Source of the DNA: Lachnospiraceae bacterium UBA3645
GTDB lineage: Bacteria > Bacillota > Clostridia > Lachnospirales > Lachnospiraceae
Reading direction: 5' to 3'
DNA: 12,836 nucleotides
NCBI GenBank assembly: GCA_002373555.1
Contig: DFKM01000222.1
Coordinates: forward strand, 474-13,309
The translations under genes were made by a program, and so were the position numbers. Positions 2,830 through 12,274 of the stretch are shown here, piece after piece (position 1 is the first letter of the stretch; the number at the start of each line of letters is the position of its first letter). Below the pieces are notes generated by a model. The model worked only from the letters and a program-made list of their open reading frames with translations. It had not been told where the DNA came from and searched no databases.

Positions 2830-2845
2830 ATTTTAGCATAAGAAT
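2818..2845. repeat. Downstream copy of the tupA promoter-region repeat
   Basis: These 28 bp align with 4028-4049 at every one of 22 shared positions if two 3-nt insertions are allowed (after CTGC and after ACATTAT). The shared core AGCATAAGAAT is at 2835-2845 and 4039-4049. At 4028-4049 it forms the -10 and start region of the tupA promoter; here it covers the tupA stop codon and one arm of the intergenic hairpin. The minus-strand TAAAAT in this copy could act as a weak -10 element for tupBC. Confidence 0.6.
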
Positions 2846-3963
2846 TACTCGATGACACCCTGATTGTTGAAGAATGTCAGATAGGTCGCCTTATCCGTAA
2901 GGATATAAGCGTGCATCTCCTCCGCCATGACAAGGCAGGCGCCCATGCCGGCATTGGCAGATACGTACCAGTCTGTGTAATCCGCGAAGGATTCCGCTTC
3001 TTCGGTGATGCCGAGTTCTTCGGGCCACAGGGAAAGTTCCTTCGTGTGGGTGCCGGAGCCGTCACCGCGGGAAATGAACTGGAACTTGCCGTCCGCAATC
3101 GCCTTGAATGCATCCGCAGCAGTCTCACAGTCCGCGACCTTTGCCGGATCCTCGGAAGGACCGCAGAGCACGAAGTAGTTGTACAGGAAGCTGACTCTCT
3201 CGGCTTCAAATCCTTCGACCGTACGGGCAAATCCCTTTTCCACGAACTCCTCTTCCTTCGCCTTTGCATGGACCAGGATCAGATCCGCGTTTCCGCTTTC
3301 GGCTGCCGCGATCGCCTTGCCGGTACCGGCAGACTGTACTTCGACGGTATAGCCGTATTTCTCTTCGAATACGGGAAGCAGGCTTCCGAGCAGACCGGAA
3401 TCATTCACGGATGTGGTGGTGGACAGACGGATCACTTTCGTCTCCTCTGTTGCTTCCGCTACTTCACCGGTGTATACCGGAACATCCTCCAGGACATAGA
3501 ACAGGCTGTCGCCATACTCTTCCTGTCCGTATGCAGCGGCCAGATCAATGGCTTCCTGTGTCAGCAGCCAGTGGATCAGCGCATCGGCACCTGCCGTATT
3601 GACGGCAACATCTTCTACAGGCGTGCCGTTCTCATCCGCAAAGGGAGCTTCGGGATTGACGGCCAGAAGAGAGTAGGTATTCTTCATGCTGTCATCCGCT
3701 TCCTTCAGGATGGTCAGGTCTACGGCGTTCTCTGCTTCCGCAGCAGCTTCCGTCTCTGCGGCTTCTGTTTCTGCAGCTGCGGTGGTCTCTGCCGCTTCCG
3801 TCTCAGCGGCTTCGGTCTCTGCTGCTGCAGTGGTCTCTGCCGCTTCCGTCACAGCCTCTGTCTCTGCTGCCGCGGTGGTCTCGGCAGGCTGGCTCTGTCC
3901 GCATGCGGTCAGCATGCCGAAAGTCATCAGCGCTGCAAGCAGCAATGCGATCGTTCTTTTCAT
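2845..3963 (-). CDS. tupA: Tungstate-binding lipoprotein TupA, apparently circularly permuted
   Basis: A 372-residue extracytoplasmic oxyanion-binding protein. Residues 1-20 are a lipoprotein signal peptide with lipobox LTAC (Cys21), so the protein is membrane-anchored. Residues 24-80 are an Ala/Glu/Thr linker. Residues 177-363 carry the normal TupA amino-terminal and middle motifs: STTTSVNDSGLL (oxyanion loop), QSAGTGKAIAAAESGNADL, LILVHA, NYFVLCGPSEDP, FISRGDGSGTHTKE and AYILTDKATYL. In known TupA proteins this is followed by a final segment of the type L-x-ILVEGD...N-x-YxVIxVNP...GQ...FG-xx-YG-xx-LF. Here the protein stops eight residues after TYLTF, and that final segment lies before the domain, at residues 82-157 (LTILKEADDSMKNTYSLLAVNPE ... 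YGQEEYGDSLFYV, in two blocks). AGGAGG lies 6 nt upstream of the ATG. First gene of tupABC. Confidence 0.9.
   Translation of the reverse strand: MKRTIALLLAALMTFGMLTACGQSQPAETTAAAETEAVTEAAETTAAAETEAAETEAAETTAAAETEAAETEAAAEAENAVDLTILKEADDSMKNTYSLLAVNPEAPFADENGTPVEDVAVNTAGADALIHWLLTQEAIDLAAAYGQEEYGDSLFYVLEDVPVYTGEVAEATEETKVIRLSTTTSVNDSGLLGSLLPVFEEKYGYTVEVQSAGTGKAIAAAESGNADLILVHAKAKEEEFVEKGFARTVEGFEAERVSFLYNYFVLCGPSEDPAKVADCETAADAFKAIADGKFQFISRGDGSGTHTKELSLWPEELGITEEAESFADYTDWYVSANAGMGACLVMAEEMHAYILTDKATYLTFFNNQGVIE
3739..3882 (-). repeat. Ala/Glu/Thr-rich repeat coding the TupA linker
   Basis: Residues 28-75 of TupA contain three copies of ETTAAAETEA (starting at residues 28, 43 and 59) separated by AAETEA-like spacers, a 15-16 residue period. 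It encodes a flexible acidic tether between the lipid anchor and the binding domain. Such slippage-prone repeats often vary in length between strains. Confidence 0.85.
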
Positions 3964-4336: not shown

Positions 4337-5557
4337 ATGTTTACCGTCAAGACGCCTGAAGAGGCATTTTCTGTCATAGAAACGGAATTCCATCCGTTCA
4401 TACCGGCAGAGACCGTTCCGGTTTCCGCCTGCTGCGGCCGCATTCTCGCGGAGGATATCATCTCTTCGGAATATGTGCCGGGCTTTACGAGGTCGACGGT
4501 CGACGGCTACGCCGTAAAGGCTTCCGACACCTTCGGCTGTTCGGATTCGATCCCTGCACTGCTGACGCTTTCCGGGGAGATCCTGATGGGTGAGGAAGCT
4601 GCGGCGGCGCTCTCCGCCGGCTGCTGCTTTTCCGTCCCGACCGGCGGCGCAGTACCGGAAGGCGCGGATGCTGTCGTGATGATCGAATATACCGAGGACT
4701 ACGGAGACGGCACGATCGGTGTGGAGAAGCCGGCGTCTCCCGGCCTGAATATCATCTATAAGGGCGATGATCTGGTGCCCGGAAAGACCGTACTGCCGGC
4801 CGGCCGCAGGATCACGGCTTCCGATATCGGCGCGCTCGCTTCCCTCGGGATCACAGGAGTTTCCGTGATAAAACGGCCGCAGATCGGCATCATTTCCACA
4901 GGCGACGAACTGGTCCCCATCGATCAGGTACCCGCTGGCGGGCAGATCCGGGACGTCAATACCCATATGCTCGATGCGCTGTGCCGCGAAATGGGTGCCG
5001 GCACACGGATCTACGGGATCGTCCGGGACGACGCAGTTCTGCTCTCCGGGATCCTGGAGAAAGCCATTTCCGAATGCGACATGGTGCTGATTTCCGGCGG
5101 CAGTTCCGTCGGTGCAAGGGACGCTGCCGCTGCCGTGATCGAAAAGCACGGAAGCATCCTGTTCCACGGGATCGCCATGAAGCCCGGCAAGCCGACCATT
5201 CTCGGCAAAGCCGGGAACCGGCCGGTCTTCGGGCTGCCCGGGCATCCCGTTGCCGCATTCTTCATCACGAAACTGTTCGTACGGCATGCAATCGCCGCGC
5301 TGACCGGCGAAAAATATACAGTCCGCACAGCGCCTGCGGTCCTGACCGAAGCGCTGAGCACGAATCACGGACGCAGCGAGACGCTCGGCGTCCGGCTGTC
5401 CGAACGGGACGGCCGGCTCTTTGCGGAACCGGTCCATACGAAATCCGGCCTGATCTCGGCGCTCGCCGGGACAGACGGCTATATCACGATCCCGCGGGAC
5501 TGCGAAGGACTTCCCGCCGGGGCTGAAGTAAATGTTTCCTTCTATGCTGCCTGCTGA
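4337..5557 (+). CDS. moeA: Molybdopterin molybdenum/tungsten transferase MoeA (first copy)
   Basis: A 406-residue MoeA, the usual length for the family. MoeA inserts molybdate or tungstate into adenylylated molybdopterin, releasing AMP, as the last step of cofactor synthesis in the cytoplasm. Visible motifs: PGFTRSTVDGYAV (48-60), GIISTGDEL (184-192), MoCF-type GGSSVGARD (254-262), HGIAMKPGKPT (277-287) and GLPGHPV (299-305); the C-terminal beta-barrel domain IV ends at SFYAAC. The ATG at 4337 has GGGGAGG (4322-4328) 8 nt upstream and lies after the structured leader. First gene of a five-gene operon; moeA2 follows after 30 nt. With a Tup transporter and AOR next door the metal is likely tungsten, but sequence alone does not separate W from Mo. 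Confidence 0.95.
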   Translation: MFTVKTPEEAFSVIETEFHPFIPAETVPVSACCGRILAEDIISSEYVPGFTRSTVDGYAVKASDTFGCSDSIPALLTLSGEILMGEEAAAALSAGCCFSVPTGGAVPEGADAVVMIEYTEDYGDGTIGVEKPASPGLNIIYKGDDLVPGKTVLPAGRRITASDIGALASLGITGVSVIKRPQIGIISTGDELVPIDQVPAGGQIRDVNTHMLDALCREMGAGTRIYGIVRDDAVLLSGILEKAISECDMVLISGGSSVGARDAAAAVIEKHGSILFHGIAMKPGKPTILGKAGNRPVFGLPGHPVAAFFITKLFVRHAIAALTGEKYTVRTAPAVLTEALSTNHGRSETLGVRLSERDGRLFAEPVHTKSGLISALAGTDGYITIPRDCEGLPAGAEVNVSFYAAC

Positions 5558-5587: not shown

Positions 5588-7498
5588 ATGGCATTTCAAT
5601 ATCTGACAAACGTACCGCTGGAGGAAGCCCGCGGCGCTTATACCGAAGCCCTGTTTTCCGAAGGCTTTCAGGCCGGGACCGAATCCGTTCCCGTGACTGC
5701 ATCCTGCGGCAGGATCACGGCTGCACCGGTCTACGCCGCGATCTGTGCGCCGCACTATCCCGCGAGCGCAATGGACGGCATCGCACTGAAGGCCGGACTG
5801 ACTTTCGGCGCCGGCGAAACAACGCCGGTCACCCTGACCCCGGAACAGTTCATCGTCGTGGATACCGGCGATCCCGTACCGGAAGACTGCGACGCGGTCA
5901 TCATGATCGAGGATGTGATAAGACAGGAGGACGGCACCGTAAAGCTGTACGCACCCGCCGCGCCCTGGCAGCACATCCGGCAGATCGGGGAAGATATCTG
6001 TGCGGGCGAAATGATCCTGCCCTCCTATACCGCGGTCACCCCTTCCGCCATCGGCGCGATGATCGCGGCAGGGGTGACGGAAGTATCCGTGCTGACAAAA
6101 CCGGTCGTCGGGATCATTCCGACCGGAGACGAAATCGTGCCGCCGACGCCGGATCCCGCACCGGGCGATATTCTGGAGTTCAACTCTTCCATTTTCTCCG
6201 GAATGCTGACCGAATGGAACGCCGTGCCGCGCACCTATCCCATCGTGAAGGATGTGAAGGAAGACATCCGCAGCGCCGTGCAGACAGCGCTTTCCGAATG
6301 TGATATCGTGCTGCTGAACGCCGGCTCCTCCGCCGGCCGGGAGGATTACTCCACGGAAGTGATCGGTTCCCTCGGCACGGTCCTGTACCACGGAATCGCC
6401 ATCAAGCCCGGAAAGCCCGCGATCCTCGGTCTTTCCGGCAGAAAACCCGTGCTGGGCGTACCGGGCTACCCCGTATCCGGCATCATCGTTCTGGAGCAGT
6501 TCCTGAAGCCGCTGATCGACTGCTGGTATCACGCTGCCGAAGCGCAGCCCGACACATGCACGGCGGTTCTTTCCAAAAATGTCGTATCCGGCCTGAAATA
6601 CCGGGAATATGTGCGTGTCCGCATGGGCGAAGTCGGCGGGAAGATCATGGCCTCTCCGCTCGGCCGGGGCAGCGGCGTTGTCTCCTCCTTCATGAAGGCC
6701 GACGGTATTCTGGAGATCCCGCAGGGCGTCGAAGGCTATGAAGCCGGCAGCGAAGTCACGGTAAGGCTTCTGAAGAAACGGGAGGCGCTCTCCCGCACGC
6801 TGGTCGCCATCGGCAGTCACGATCCGCTGCTGGATGAGATTTCGGATCTCCTGCATTCTTCCGATCCGTCCCTGCACATGAGTTCCACCCATGTCGGTTC
6901 GATGGGCGGCATCATGGCGGTAAAGCGCGGGGAAACCCATATCGCGGGCGTTCATCTGCTGAATGAAGCGGACGGCGTTTATAATACCGCTTTCATCAGG
7001 AAATATTTCCCGCAGGGCGGCGTACGTCTCGTGGAATGCGTCGGAAGGACGCAGGGACTGATGCTGCAGAAAGGAAATCCGAAGAACATTCAGGGGATCT
7101 ACGATCTGACACGCGCCGGCGTACGTTATGTCAACCGCCAGAAAGGTTCCGGCACAAGGATCCTGATCGATTATCTGTGCCGTAAGGAAGGGGTTTCCTT
7201 CGGCGATATTTACGGCTATGACCGTGAGGAGTTCACGCACACCTCGGTCGCGGCGCAGATCGCCTCCAATACTGCGGATGCCGGCATGGGCATTTACTCC
7301 GCAGCCCGCCTGTATGATCTGGATTTTCTTCCAGTCTGCATGGAGCAGTACGATCTGCTGATTCCCGATGCGGCGTGGGAGACCGCGCTCGTACAGAAGC
7401 TGATCGCGATCCTTCAGAGTGCGGAATTCCGGAATCGTCTGGAAGCCCTGGGCGGCTACGAACTGAAAAATCCCGGCAGCGTACGGGAGCGTTTCTGA
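5588..7498 (+). CDS. MoeA fused to a periplasmic-binding-protein-like domain
   Basis: A 636-residue two-part protein. Residues 1-398 form a second MoeA: YPASAMDGIAL (57-67), GIIPTGDEI (175-183), NAGSSAGREDY (244-254), HGIAIKPGKPAILG (268-281), GVPGYPV (290-296). Residues 403-636 match the PBP-like domain (PF12727 type) found fused to MoeA in archaea and anaerobic bacteria, with SSTHVGSMGGIMAVKRGETHI, GVHLLNE, NRQKGSGTR (516-524), VAAQIASNTADAGMGIYSAA and the end ILQSAEFRNRLEALGGYE. That domain has no signal peptide, so it should bind an oxyanion or cofactor in the cytoplasm, perhaps feeding metal to the MoeA site; this is inference. AAGGAGG lies 6 nt before the ATG. Its stop overlaps the next start by one base (TGATG). 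Tandem MoeA copies suggest sub-division of work, for example W versus Mo or insertion versus delivery. Confidence 0.92.
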   Translation: MAFQYLTNVPLEEARGAYTEALFSEGFQAGTESVPVTASCGRITAAPVYAAICAPHYPASAMDGIALKAGLTFGAGETTPVTLTPEQFIVVDTGDPVPEDCDAVIMIEDVIRQEDGTVKLYAPAAPWQHIRQIGEDICAGEMILPSYTAVTPSAIGAMIAAGVTEVSVLTKPVVGIIPTGDEIVPPTPDPAPGDILEFNSSIFSGMLTEWNAVPRTYPIVKDVKEDIRSAVQTALSECDIVLLNAGSSAGREDYSTEVIGSLGTVLYHGIAIKPGKPAILGLSGRKPVLGVPGYPVSGIIVLEQFLKPLIDCWYHAAEAQPDTCTAVLSKNVVSGLKYREYVRVRMGEVGGKIMASPLGRGSGVVSSFMKADGILEIPQGVEGYEAGSEVTVRLLKKREALSRTLVAIGSHDPLLDEISDLLHSSDPSLHMSSTHVGSMGGIMAVKRGETHIAGVHLLNEADGVYNTAFIRKYFPQGGVRLVECVGRTQGLMLQKGNPKNIQGIYDLTRAGVRYVNRQKGSGTRILIDYLCRKEGVSFGDIYGYDREEFTHTSVAAQIASNTADAGMGIYSAARLYDLDFLPVCMEQYDLLIPDAAWETALVQKLIAILQSAEFRNRLEALGGYELKNPGSVRERF

Positions 7499-8916
7499 TG
7501 AGCGGCAGCCGGGCTGCCGGCCTGTCCGGCAGGCATACGGATGTGATCATTATCGGCGCCGGCGTGCTCGGCTGCTTCCTGGCGCGTTCTCTGCGGCGTT
7601 ATGATCTGTCCGTCCGCGTACTGGAAATGGCGGACGATGTGTGTACGGGAATCTCCCGCGGCGGCAGCGGGATCATTTACGCCGGCTACGACATGAAGCC
7701 CGGCACAAGAAAAGCACGGATGACGACGGAGGCCTGCATTGCGTTCCCGGAACTGTGCCGGACGCTGAGCGTCCGATACCGGAATACAGGATCCCTGGTC
7801 GTCAGTTTCGGCGAAAACGCCGACCGTTCCCTTACGGATAAGCTGGAACGCGGGAAGAAGAACGGCGTGCCGGGGCTGCGGCTGCTTTCCCGCAGGGAAA
7901 CGCTCGCGATGGAACCGCTGCTGTCTCCGGCTGTTTCCGGCGCGCTGTATGCGCCGGGCACCTGCACGGTCGATCCGTGGGAGCTCGGTATCGCGGCTTA
8001 TGAGAATGCGCTGGCAAACGGCGCGGAATTTGTTTTCAAGCGCAATGCCGAACACGTGCAGCGAACTTCAGAAGGCTTTACCGTAACCGCCTCCGGGCAG
8101 GAATACGGCTGCCGCATTCTCGTAAACTGTGCCGGCACTGCGGCCGGGAACGTACATGAGCTCGTATCAGATCCCTCTGTCCGCATACAGACAGCAGCGG
8201 CAGATTATATCGTACTGGAAGACGATGCCGGCCCTGCTGTATCTCATGTGATCTTCCATGAAACGGAGGACGGCAGCAAGGGGCTGACGCTCATCCCGAC
8301 AGCCCACGGAAATATGATGATCGGGCAGACGGAACGGGAAATGAACGGTCCCGGCAATCCGACGGACAGCGGCGGCATCGCCCGTCTGCAGGAACTGTGC
8401 AGAGAAGTCGTTCCCGGGCTGCCGGCGGATCAGATCCTGCGCACCTTTGCGGTCTCCCGTCCGAATCCGTATACAGTCATGCGGTCCGGGGATACATGGG
8501 TGCCTGCCGGAAAGAGCCATTTCGATTTTTCCATTCTGGAAGAAGACGGATTTTTCAGCCTGATCGGCATCAAGACGCCGGGGCTGACCTGCAGCAATGC
8601 ACTGGCGGAGGATCTGACGGGCAGGATCCTGGCGGCCCTTGGAGAGGTGGCGGAGAATCCGGATTTCGATCCGGTCCGGAAACCGCCGGTGACTGTTCAT
8701 GTACTTTCTGCGGAAGAACGTAATGCACTGATCCGGAAGGATCCGGCTTACGGCAGGATCGTATGCATGTGCCGGGATATCTCCGAAGGAGAGATCCGGG
8801 ATGCGGTCCGCCGCGGAGCACGGTCTCTGTCCGGCATCAAATACCGTACCGGCGCCATGATGGGCAACTGCCAGGGCAGCCGGTGCATGCAAAGGATCAT
8901 GGATTTACTGTTATGA
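7498..8916 (+). CDS. FAD-dependent oxidoreductase (DAO/GlpA-like) with C-terminal BFD-type [2Fe-2S] domain
   Basis: A 472-residue flavoprotein. IIIGAGVLG (17-25) is the dinucleotide-binding Rossmann motif, and RGGSGIIYAGYD plus the later GIKTPGLTCSNALAEDL fit the glycerol-3-phosphate dehydrogenase/DAO fold. The tail (about 420-472) is a bacterioferritin-associated-ferredoxin-like domain with Cys423, Cys425, Cys458 and Cys463 (CMC ... GNCQGSRC), expected to hold a [2Fe-2S] cluster. The ATG at 7498 overlaps the moeA2 stop (TGATG); the frame is open 41 codons further upstream but that part is antisense-free moeA2 coding sequence in another frame. No membrane span. With the next gene it forms a GlpAB-like pair; a third partner, the small DUF1667 protein often found in such operons, is absent. 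The substrate is unknown. Its place in a W-cofactor operon suggests redox work linked to the AOR, but this is inferred. Confidence 0.85.
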   Translation: MSGSRAAGLSGRHTDVIIIGAGVLGCFLARSLRRYDLSVRVLEMADDVCTGISRGGSGIIYAGYDMKPGTRKARMTTEACIAFPELCRTLSVRYRNTGSLVVSFGENADRSLTDKLERGKKNGVPGLRLLSRRETLAMEPLLSPAVSGALYAPGTCTVDPWELGIAAYENALANGAEFVFKRNAEHVQRTSEGFTVTASGQEYGCRILVNCAGTAAGNVHELVSDPSVRIQTAAADYIVLEDDAGPAVSHVIFHETEDGSKGLTLIPTAHGNMMIGQTEREMNGPGNPTDSGGIARLQELCREVVPGLPADQILRTFAVSRPNPYTVMRSGDTWVPAGKSHFDFSILEEDGFFSLIGIKTPGLTCSNALAEDLTGRILAALGEVAENPDFDPVRKPPVTVHVLSAEERNALIRKDPAYGRIVCMCRDISEGEIRDAVRRGARSLSGIKYRTGAMMGNCQGSRCMQRIMDLLL

Positions 8917-9821
8917 AAGAGCTCACCTGTGACATCTTCATCGCCGGCGCCGGCGCCGCGGGCATGTCCGCGGCGCTTTCCGCATGCGCGGCCGGCGCCG
9001 ATGTGCTCCTGGCGGAGCAGGATGCCCAGCCCGGCGGGATCCTGAACCGCTGCATTCATCACGGATTCGGGCTGGGCTATTTCGGCGAAGACCTCACCGG
9101 CCGGGAGTACGCCGCGCGCTTCCGCGCGCGGCTGGCCGGCTCGGCCGTCCGCCTCCGCACCGGGACCACAGTGCTCTCCATTTCCGAAGACCGCACTGCG
9201 CTGCTGTCTTCGGCGGACGGGTTGACGCTGGTCCGTTTCCGCGCCTGCATTCTTGCCGCCGGCAGCATCGAACGGAACCTCTCTTCCGTTCCCGTCGCGG
9301 GGACACGGCCTGCCGGCGTGCTTACCGCAGGCTGTCTGCAGGGCATGCTGAACTGCGGCGGACACGCGGATATCGGAGAGCGCATCGTCATCCTCGGCAG
9401 CGGAAACGTCGGCCAGATCATGGCCCGCCAGCTGGCGCAGTCGGGCAAGACCATCCTTGCCATGATCGAGCAGAACGACCATCCGGGCGGGCTGGCGCGC
9501 AATCACCGCGAATGCATTGAAGCGTATCATATCCCGCTGCGGCTGCATTCCACAGTGACAGAGATCCACGGTACGGAACGCATTTCCGCCGTGACCGTAA
9601 AGGATCTGCGTTCCGGAGAGACAGAACTCATGGAATGTGATACAATGATCACAGCACTGGGACTGCTTCCCGACCGTTCGCTTGTTTCTCATTTACGGAA
9701 AGACGGCTCGTTCCCTGACTGGCTGCGTCTTTGCGGGAACTGCGACCTGATTTATGATATTGTCGATTCCCTGACCGTGCGGGCGGAACAGACCGGCGCC
9801 GAAGCGTGGGAATCCGCCTGA
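8913..9821 (+). CDS. NAD(P)/FAD-dependent oxidoreductase (pyridine nucleotide-disulphide family, GlpB-like)
   Basis: A 302-residue protein with two nucleotide-binding motifs: FIAGAGAAG (9-17) for FAD and VILGSGNVG (159-167) for NAD(P)H. EQDAQPGGILNRCIHHGFG (35-53) and ILAAGSIERN are typical of the oxidoreductases that partner GlpA-like flavoproteins with BFD domains, and LPDRSLVSHL with CGNCDLIYDIVDSLT form the usual C-terminal FAD contact. A CxxC (Cys274, Cys277) is present there. It is shorter than typical disulphide reductases and lacks their dimerisation domain. The ATG overlaps the previous stop in an ATGA junction and has no good Shine-Dalgarno, so it depends on coupling; the two proteins are probably made in equal amounts as a complex. 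Possible role: electron exchange between NAD(P)H and the Fe-S partner. Not proven. Confidence 0.83.
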   Translation: MKELTCDIFIAGAGAAGMSAALSACAAGADVLLAEQDAQPGGILNRCIHHGFGLGYFGEDLTGREYAARFRARLAGSAVRLRTGTTVLSISEDRTALLSSADGLTLVRFRACILAAGSIERNLSSVPVAGTRPAGVLTAGCLQGMLNCGGHADIGERIVILGSGNVGQIMARQLAQSGKTILAMIEQNDHPGGLARNHRECIEAYHIPLRLHSTVTEIHGTERISAVTVKDLRSGETELMECDTMITALGLLPDRSLVSHLRKDGSFPDWLRLCGNCDLIYDIVDSLTVRAEQTGAEAWESA

Positions 9822-10816: not shown

Positions 10817-10829
10817 TCGTAAGATTTGT

Positions 10830-10844
10830 TTGCAGACATTTCTT
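10830..10844 (+). repeat. Internal IS inverted repeat, left copy
   Basis: This 15-bp segment (TTGCAGACA core) matches the reverse complement of 12556-12570 at 14 of 15 positions. The pair lies just outside the two coding regions and well inside the iteron arrays. Confidence 0.55.
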
Positions 10845-10861
10845 TATCGAAAGGAGGATAC

Positions 10862-12274
10862 ATGAATAGTATCACAGACATTCTCGACTTAGAAGACCCT
10901 GATATTTACATCTCGGATATTCAAGTTGAGGGAAGCAAAAAACTGATCACTTTAGAATCTCGTCCCCTCCCTCATTACTGCCCATCCTGCGGATTTCGCA
11001 TGTATTCCAGAGGCATAAAACAAAGAACTATTTCCCATCCCATCCTGCAGGATGGCTATGCCCTGATCCTGCTGCTTAAACAGCGGCGTTGGCGTTGTAC
11101 AAATCCTGACTGTCGATATGAAGCAAATGAATCATTCCGCTTTGTGAACCGCAGTCGTCGTACTACAAACGCCACAGACATGCTGATCATCCAGGCTTTC
11201 AGAAATCTTAATGAACCGGCTGCTTCAATCGCCAGGCGCTTTAAGACATCTGATACACATGTACTTGATGTATTTGACCGATATGTCAAGATGGAACGGC
11301 TCCCGCTCACAGATATCATTTCTGTTGATGAAGTCTATACCGATATGGGTGATGACGGAAAATACGCATTGGTTATTCAGGACTTTCATACCGGAGATCC
11401 AATCGATCTTCTCCGGAGCAGACGTGCAAAAATCACAGAACCGTACTTTGTTTCCATTCCTCCGGAAGAGCGGAACCAGGTAAAATATCTGCTTTCAGAC
11501 ATGTATAATCAGTACATATCTTTTGTTGATAAGTATTTCCCGAACGCTGTCTCTGTCGTTGATTCATTCCATGTGATTCAGTGGATTGTGCATGCAATCG
11601 ATATGTATATCCGCCAGCGGGAGCGTGACTTTCGTAAACGCGACCGTGAACGGGAAGAAAGACTTTCGGCTGAGCAGGGACGTCCGATCTCTCTTCCTGT
11701 ATCCGATGAGATTTATCTACTGAAGAAATACCGTTGGCTTATCCTCTCTAACCCGGAAAACATCACGTATCATGCCGATACCCGCATGGATCAGCACTTC
11801 CGCCGCTACATGAATACCTACGATTACGAGGATGCTTTGTTCCGCGTCGATCCACGATTGAGGACACTGCGGGAGCTGAAAAACAAATATGTAAGTTTCA
11901 ATACCCGCAACGCCGGTCTTCCTATTCGTGCAGCAGAGGAAATCGAAGATCTCATTGATCTATATTTTCGCAGTGGACAGGATCTGTTTGTCGATTTCGC
12001 GCAGCTTCTCTGCAAGTATAAAGAACCTATCCTCAACTCATTTGTTATGGTCGAAAAACATGGAGCAGGTAATCTGTATGACAGCCGCCTTTCCAATGGC
12101 CCGATTGAATCCCTGAACAGAAAAATCAAGGATCTGAAAAGGAGCGGTCACGGATTCCGAAATTTTGAGCATCTCCGCAACCGCTTCCTTTACGCCGCAA
12201 GAAACAATCCAACATTATATGGATCTTCAGACCGTTCACAGGTACAGTATTTTGAAGATGATGAATTATTATGA
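10862..12274 (+). CDS. ISL3-family transposase
   Basis: A 470-residue DDE transposase, within the usual ISL3 range. An N-terminal zinc finger is formed by Cys40-x2-Cys43 and Cys79-x4-Cys84 (HYCPSC ... RCTNPDC), followed by a helix-turn-helix region around 100-140. Likely catalytic residues are Asp156 (SVDEVYTD), Asp234 (VVDSFHVIQW) and Glu416 (SNGPIESLNRKIKDLKR). A charged insert (251-271, RQRERDFRKRDREREER) precedes the C-terminal half. The ATG at 10862 has AAGGAGG 4 nt upstream; a TTG at 10826 in the same frame lacks support. The frame is intact, so the element may be active. Codon use is more AT-rich than in the metal-cofactor genes, as expected for an acquired element. Confidence 0.92.
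   Translation: MNSITDILDLEDPDIYISDIQVEGSKKLITLESRPLPHYCPSCGFRMYSRGIKQRTISHPILQDGYALILLLKQRRWRCTNPDCRYEANESFRFVNRSRRTTNATDMLIIQAFRNLNEPAASIARRFKTSDTHVLDVFDRYVKMERLPLTDIISVDEVYTDMGDDGKYALVIQDFHTGDPIDLLRSRRAKITEPYFVSIPPEERNQVKYLLSDMYNQYISFVDKYFPNAVSVVDSFHVIQWIVHAIDMYIRQRERDFRKRDREREERLSAEQGRPISLPVSDEIYLLKKYRWLILSNPENITYHADTRMDQHFRRYMNTYDYEDALFRVDPRLRTLRELKNKYVSFNTRNAGLPIRAAEEIEDLIDLYFRSGQDLFVDFAQLLCKYKEPILNSFVMVEKHGAGNLYDSRLSNGPIESLNRKIKDLKRSGHGFRNFEHLRNRFLYAARNNPTLYGSSDRSQVQYFEDDELL

Follow-up and report, generated by a model that had tools for sequence, protein, structure and literature searches.

A probable tungstate-binding protein of the TupA family with the C-terminal quarter ahead of the N-terminal three quarters in a Lachnospiraceae genome

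The window, i.e. the whole stretch of 12,836 nucleotides analysed here (contig DFKM01000222.1, positions 474 to 13,309 of the forward strand), originates from the assembly of Lachnospiraceae bacterium UBA3645 (GCA_002373555.1; genome G000) and carries a gene for a relative of the tungstate-binding protein TupA. Its product begins with what is normally the last quarter of TupA (block B) and continues with the first three quarters (block A). This protein is very probably the circularly permuted lipoprotein that captures the substrate for a tungstate importer of the TupABC type. The gene is laid out as follows:

2845-3963, (-): permuted tupA, an intact open reading frame (ORF) encoding a lipoprotein of 372 aa
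3901..3963, (-): signal peptide with LTAC (residues 1-21, Cys21), read from the sequence and taken here to be a lipobox
3724..3900, (-): Ala/Glu/Thr-rich linker (residues 22-80; 59 residues), read from the sequence, a probable connection between the lipid anchor and lobe B
3496..3723, (-): block B (residues 81-156), the closing part of canonical TupA, assigned by hidden Markov model (HMM), hhalign and identity to the canonical relative P0230, with a lobe-B strand within 81-96, the crossover at Thr96/Tyr97, then a lobe-A strand and helices
3436..3495, (-): junction (residues 157-176) linking the former C- and N-termini, placed by the constant spacing of the NxY and TTTS motifs
2872..3435, (-): block A (residues 177-364), the opening part of canonical TupA, assigned by profile, phmmer and HMM evidence and holding the proposed oxyanion-site residues TTTS 182-185, His232, Arg299, Thr305 and Asp357
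2848..2871, (-): new C-terminal tail (residues 365-372), placed by the distance from a DK[AT]-type motif to the chain end

Pfam PBP_like_2 matched residues 172-364 only (profile 4-207 of 267) and NCBIfam TupA residues 176-368 only (profile 15-193 of 266), so that the profile ends were left unmatched at 172-368. Using phmmer against 3lr1, 3muq and 3kn3, query residues 177-367 were aligned to chain residues 6-182, and the query from residue 78, 81 or 83 onward to chain residues 179-229; for 3lr1, the two pieces were 177-364 on 6-178 and 81-105 on 183-207. The second pieces were weak singly (3.2 bits for 3lr1, 9.9 for 3muq, 9.3 for 3kn3), and therefore the C-terminal blocks of canonical TupA, taken from 37 proteins, were used to build an HMM. 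This block-B HMM matched residues 81-156 of the window protein at 48.6 bits; the 93 permuted rows all scored between 39.2 and 63.8 bits, with the match always ahead of block A. The best score among 1860 shuffled sequences was 5.4 bits. Alignment of permuted against canonical block-B alignments with hhalign gave a probability of 99.6 (E 2e-24). Against canonical P0230, 112/188 positions of block A (60%; P0230 residues 85-258) and 39/74 positions of block B (53%; residues 268-329) were identical.

The separate profile comparison of both parts, which the first-pass annotation had proposed, identified block B as the canonical C-terminal block, and the claim that all TupA blocks are present in rotated order was confirmed by the block HMM, the P0230 alignment and the relatives. 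The residue positions given there were correct to within 1-2 residues, with STTTS beginning at 181, not 180. The order A then B, characteristic of canonical TupA, is replaced by B before A, and the two parts are homologous to opposite ends of the relatives, neither duplicated nor lost, as in a natural circular permutant. A second block B was found by motif in 0/93 permuted rows. Spacings were nearly constant across these rows: the NxY motif was followed by the TTTS motif after 85-87 residues in 93/93, and the DK[AT]-type motif by the chain end after 14-17 residues in all 92 rows holding it, the remaining one, L066, stopping before this motif.

For the relatives, the best 80 of 416 were kept from a GTDB scan, and 5820 were counted in the protein database, 120 of them among the matches listed. 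By motif, the swapped order was present in 80/80 best GTDB loci and in 119/120 best database proteins; P0120, the one exception, was missed by the motif filter only and reads B then A. The search for homologues of the same order thus showed the swap to be widespread. The 93 permuted rows represent 85 distinct sequences; L013, L018, L023, L025 and L037, which were pieces or gave no ORF by motif, were excluded from the counts together with L046, in which block B was not found. Among P0001-P0240, the block-A motif did not match seven proteins and the block-B motif did not match P0181. According to their titles, in which bin labels may err, permuted loci belong to Lachnospiraceae, Oscillospiraceae, Ruminococcaceae, a Peptococcaceae and a Solobacterium (Erysipelotrichaceae), and rumen or gut samples are named for many of them. 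Judged by match range, permuted TupA was present in 6/11 genomes of the window's genus, 7/20 matching genomes of its family (397 scanned), 4/29 of its order (392 scanned; three more held block A only), 4/47 of its class (391 scanned) and, among the matches listed, 1/179 of its phylum (398 scanned), this one being the window's own genome. Permuted and canonical TupA occurred together in 0/15 genomes with a permuted match at the search threshold, the completeness of these genomes being variable. Two different permuted tupA genes were observed per genome bin in G389 (L021, L036), for L070 with L079 and for L118 with L137.

Trees were calculated from both blocks with midpoint rooting, after the 93 permuted rows had been cut to 47 and 17 by identity limits. 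All permuted rows were placed on one side of one branch (support 100/100), grouping (99/95) with a canonical clade made up of L024 and those rows of P0121-P0240 that were kept, and this pair was nested inside other canonical TupA. The simplest reading is therefore that canonical order is ancestral; the trees are consistent with a single origin of permuted TupA within the TupA tree. The permuted clade also differs in internal spacing (85 distinct permuted and 37 canonical proteins): TTTS to SRGD measured 116 in 85/85 permuted and 106-113 in 37/37 canonical proteins; His to the YN motif 30 in 85/85 and 23 in 33, the pattern being absent in 4 canonical proteins; NxY to LF 58-60 in 85/85 and 46-48 in 33/37; SRGD to GMG 41 in 82/85 (one 40, one 20, one absent) and 33-35 in 37/37. 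The first-pass statement that nothing was lost, only moved, accordingly holds in that no block is absent; additional residues, fixed in length, at three sites mean that the permutation is not purely a move.

As the likely origin, tupA would have undergone an in-frame head-to-tail duplication (A-B-A-B), after which the first A and the last B would have been trimmed to leave B-A. For INTERMEDIATES, a search limited to long proteins (54 matches) with block annotation gave four A-B-A-B proteins, and hence the step required by duplication and trimming does occur in the TupA family. The halves of P0242 and P0243 were 98%/87% and 93%/84% identical in A/B, and both proteins were located inside the canonical sister clade (100/99 for the split holding both with its 47 rows; inner support mixed). 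The halves of P0244 and P0245 were 85%/71-72% identical in A/B and grouped with distant canonical rows. This placement does not support the A-B-A-B proteins as direct ancestors of the permuted form. P0242-P0245 are possible two-site tungstate binders.

P0241 consists of A-tail, B and A-head twice, with a period of 309 and 305/306 identical positions between the repeats; compared with the window protein, its opening point would lie one strand-helix earlier. Its unit was sister to all permuted rows (100/98), with a long branch flagged as unsure, and since near-perfect repeats on one contig may reflect an assembly error, P0241 is treated as a lead only. By match range, its arrangement was absent among the matches listed for the 398 phylum and 392 order genomes, and a leftover A-tail before block B was found in 0/93 loci proteins and in none of P0001-P0120 (P0120 not passing the filter by motif), P0241 being the sole such form. 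It is conceivable, if rather doubtful, that the living TupA family displays the steps of the permutation: A-B, then A-B-A-B made at least 2 times (P0242/P0243 and P0244/P0245), the P0241 form, and B-A, which replaces A-B in many Clostridia of the gut and where the opening in lobe B moved the tether and might have been kept for a changed docking on, or nearness to, TupB. Further domain combinations were seen in P0246, P0247 and probably P0181, in which a second domain follows canonical TupA (PF01497 in P0246 and P0247, presumably a periplasmic binding domain), and in P0249, P0250 and P0251, in which canonical TupA blocks share a protein with PF00174, taken here to be a molybdopterin-binding oxidoreductase domain.

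The oxyanion residues proposed for TupA of D. alaskensis are TTTS, His59, Arg118, Thr124 and Asp170, and Arg118 mutants are described as having lost molybdate binding and altered tungstate binding (PMC5517513). All proposed residues map to block A, occur in the window protein and were unchanged in 13/13 aligned permuted proteins. By pattern, TTTS, SRGDxSGT (Arg, Thr), His and Asp were counted in 85, 85, 82 and 84 of the 85 distinct permuted proteins, and in 37, 37, 32 and 37 of the 37 canonical ones. The window protein probably catches tungstate for import. The neighbouring genes of the window are:

2074-2826, (-): tupB, permease (NCBIfam ABC_perm1 172 bits, over cut-off; TupB 136 bits, below the cut-off of 320)
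1421-2077, (-): tupC, ATPase (PF00005; start taken to be the ATG that overlaps the stop of tupB)
752-1207, (-): 4Fe-4S ferredoxin (Pfam Fer4 families)
3-734, (-): aldehyde:ferredoxin oxidoreductase (AOR), N-terminal part, running off the window (PF02730 AFOR_N, 141 bits)
4337..5557, (+): divergent moeA, molybdopterin molybdotransferase (family profiles)
5588..7498, (+): second divergent moeA, with a fused PBP_like domain, adjoining the stand-alone moeA (family profiles)
divergent side of the window: ThiF/MoeB gene (family profiles)
10826-12274: divergent ISL3-family transposase at the cluster edge (family profiles)

The genes tupA, tupB, tupC, ferredoxin and AOR lie on the same strand and form an operon in the window; the AOR frame extends to the contig end, with AFOR_C at G000:C34:2-310 just beyond the window, and an AOR domain was found at two further places in the genome. 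Permuted tupA is retained beside tupB and tupC in many species: among permuted loci, tupB was present in 77/80 and tupC in 73/80, the seven loci lacking tupB or tupC ending at that point, and AOR was detected within about 6 kb in 30/80. The stand-alone and the fused moeA queries matched in 39/80 and 45/80 permuted loci, respectively, where both queries can match the same gene. AOR-family enzymes presumably use tungsten, and the permuted TupA system may supply tungstate to them. Besides, a divergent pair consisting of an FAD oxidoreductase with a BFD-like 2Fe-2S domain and a pyridine-nucleotide oxidoreductase was observed at window 7375-9821, and corresponding matches were located near permuted tupA in 29/80 and 27/80 loci. 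Elsewhere in the genome, a 148-aa frame (G000:C223:4889-5284) with two TOBE domains side by side resembles a molybdate/tungstate storage protein.

That the protein is permuted and its ligand is not mainly tungstate, so that it would bind molybdate or mixed oxyanions, is improbable but the best of the alternatives. It would suit the moeA genes and the MoeB/ThiF gene adjoining permuted tupA in the window (both presumably common to molybdenum and tungsten cofactors), the detection of AOR in only 30/80 loci and the extra residues of the permuted clade; it is opposed by the retained TupA site motifs, the nesting of the permuted clade in the TupA tree, the AOR and ferredoxin genes of the window operon, and a separate ModA in the genome.

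The location of the cut was mapped on 5my5, in which lobe A comprises residues 2-76 and 201-251 and lobe B residues 91-200, with a central strand (77-89) between them (PMC5517513). Mapping was counted along the alignment, the D. alaskensis residue number being the chain position minus 23. Tyr201 of D. alaskensis TupA is the Y of the N-x-Y motif and corresponds to window Tyr97; window Phe364 corresponds to about residue 177 of 5my5 and window Val81, without gaps, to about 185. The cut is thus located between about residues 177 and 185, inside lobe B, and the lipid tether (Cys21 and linker) should therefore shift from lobe A to lobe B. The first-pass annotation had suggested that the chain end and tether were moved to another face or hinge: the move fits the other lobe, not the hinge. 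The canonical chain path, A-hinge-B-hinge-A, becomes B-hinge-A-hinge-B with still two crossovers, and as the old termini are joined and the opening lies in lobe B, lobe A is continuous and lobe B split. A lipobox-like site was found by pattern in 64/85 distinct permuted proteins. About 12 permuted relatives (L078, L109, L117, L120, L122, L123, L126, L128, L131, L133, L134 and L136) have, by eye, a signal peptide without lipobox, some nearly without linker. A signal peptide and (AETEA)n linker closely similar to those of window 3724-3963 were observed on other lipoproteins of the genome (L002-L008, L207), ModA included, with 63% identity over query residues 1-94.

AlphaFold2 folded the window protein as a single chain with good confidence, a model in line with the earlier claim that the fold can still close on its ligand. 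The permuted chain would fold into the usual two-lobed trap, close and dock on TupB, with tungstate held between TTTS on lobe A and the opposite Arg/Thr/Asp, while the lipid tether would hold lobe B instead of lobe A. Alternatively, block B of one molecule could complete block A of another in a domain-swapped dimer, giving an oligomeric binding protein. A single-chain prediction is blind to intra- versus inter-chain packing and the junction has only about 20 residues; however, the single chain was folded with good confidence, the junction spacing is constant in 93/93 rows, and both the N- and the C-terminal segment of canonical TupA are located in lobe A (PMC5517513), so that a short joint may suffice. 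Domain swapping is therefore considered a distant prospect. It is barely credible that residues 81-163 are an unrelated added domain beside a truncated TupA (177-372): standard profiles leave 81-163 unmatched, but the block-B HMM and the 53% identity to P0230 identify the canonical C-terminal block and refute this. That the swap arose by misassembly or wrong binning in a fragmented metagenome-assembled genome (G000, with 63% completeness and 244 contigs) has next to no probability and is refuted by the same order in 80/80 best GTDB loci and 119/120 best database proteins (P0120 also being B-A), and by the single clade and fixed spacings of the relatives.

The following points weigh against a permuted tungstate-binding TupA as preferred here. 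The window protein (142.9 bits) does not reach the NCBIfam TupA cut-off of 400 bits (NF041772, tung_bind_TupA); three permuted proteins tested scored 130-157 bits, compared with 207-267 bits for six canonical relatives, which also stay under the cut-off (6/6) with matches reaching profile 260-264 of 266. TupB and TupC both score under their NCBIfam cut-offs, the tupC product with 70 bits also under other ABC (ATP-binding cassette) models. AOR was not found within the retrieved flanks of 50/80 permuted loci, and ModA is encoded elsewhere in the genome, so that the permuted system is not the sole oxyanion importer. The AlphaFold2 alignment contained only 13 rows; of the five models, two had poor predicted local distance difference test scores (60 and 59). 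Regarding the fold, block A superposes on TupA structures and the order of elements is rotated (fold-search matches follow chain order), the packing of block B coming only from the AlphaFold2 model. The relatives without lipobox imply that relocation of the tether is not the whole story. In the first tree, with fewer sister rows, a warning was raised that the long branches of L024 and the permuted stem meet, which was gone in the tree with more sister rows. Finally, the placement of the A-B-A-B pairs in canonical clades points to separate duplications, not to an ancestral intermediate.

In literature searches, which covered open-licence papers and make absence weak evidence, permuted TupA was not found, and term searches inside PMC9732360 and PMC2861598 returned nothing on natural permutation. 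Owing to the partial profile matches below cut-off, gut tungstate importers may be overlooked in annotation; tungsten enzymes of the gut currently attract attention (PMC11980592).

Permuted binding proteins of natural origin have been described before, and permuted TupA adds a fresh variant. The best family and fold matches of the window protein are TupA, ModA and similar binding proteins, type I proteins lying outside direct comparison. TupA of D. alaskensis G20 (5my5) and G. sulfurreducens (3lr1) shares its blocks, its proposed site residues and its tupB/tupC partners with the window protein, at 38-45% identity over block A. The window protein differs in a block order shifted round by about one quarter of the chain length, in termini located in lobe B instead of A, and in the extra fixed-length residues at three places. 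The binding domains of GlnPQ are in canonical order and fused to the permease. This Lactococcus lactis protein resembles A-B-A-B TupA in carrying two binding domains per chain (PMC11331510). TpMglB-2 (Tp0684) of Treponema pallidum, named 'Type Ic', is likewise a natural, tethered, circularly permuted binding protein, whose topology recurs in related species and for which anchoring is raised as a possible cause; it differs by a type I sugar-binding fold with reordered N-lobe strands and an added fourth crossover, and by 13% identity of the moved part, versus 53% in permuted TupA (PMC4990184). In the CPSARST group of glycine-betaine-binding, molybdate-binding and CysB proteins, similar folds are linked by circular permutation, molybdate binders included, but on the basis of distant structural comparison (<24% identity), with different ligands and not within one orthologous family (PMC2395249). 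Permuted and canonical TupA are up to about 60% identical, share their partners and have double-length kin, which makes cause, route and consequence of the permutation directly testable, unlike in the distant structure-based cases.
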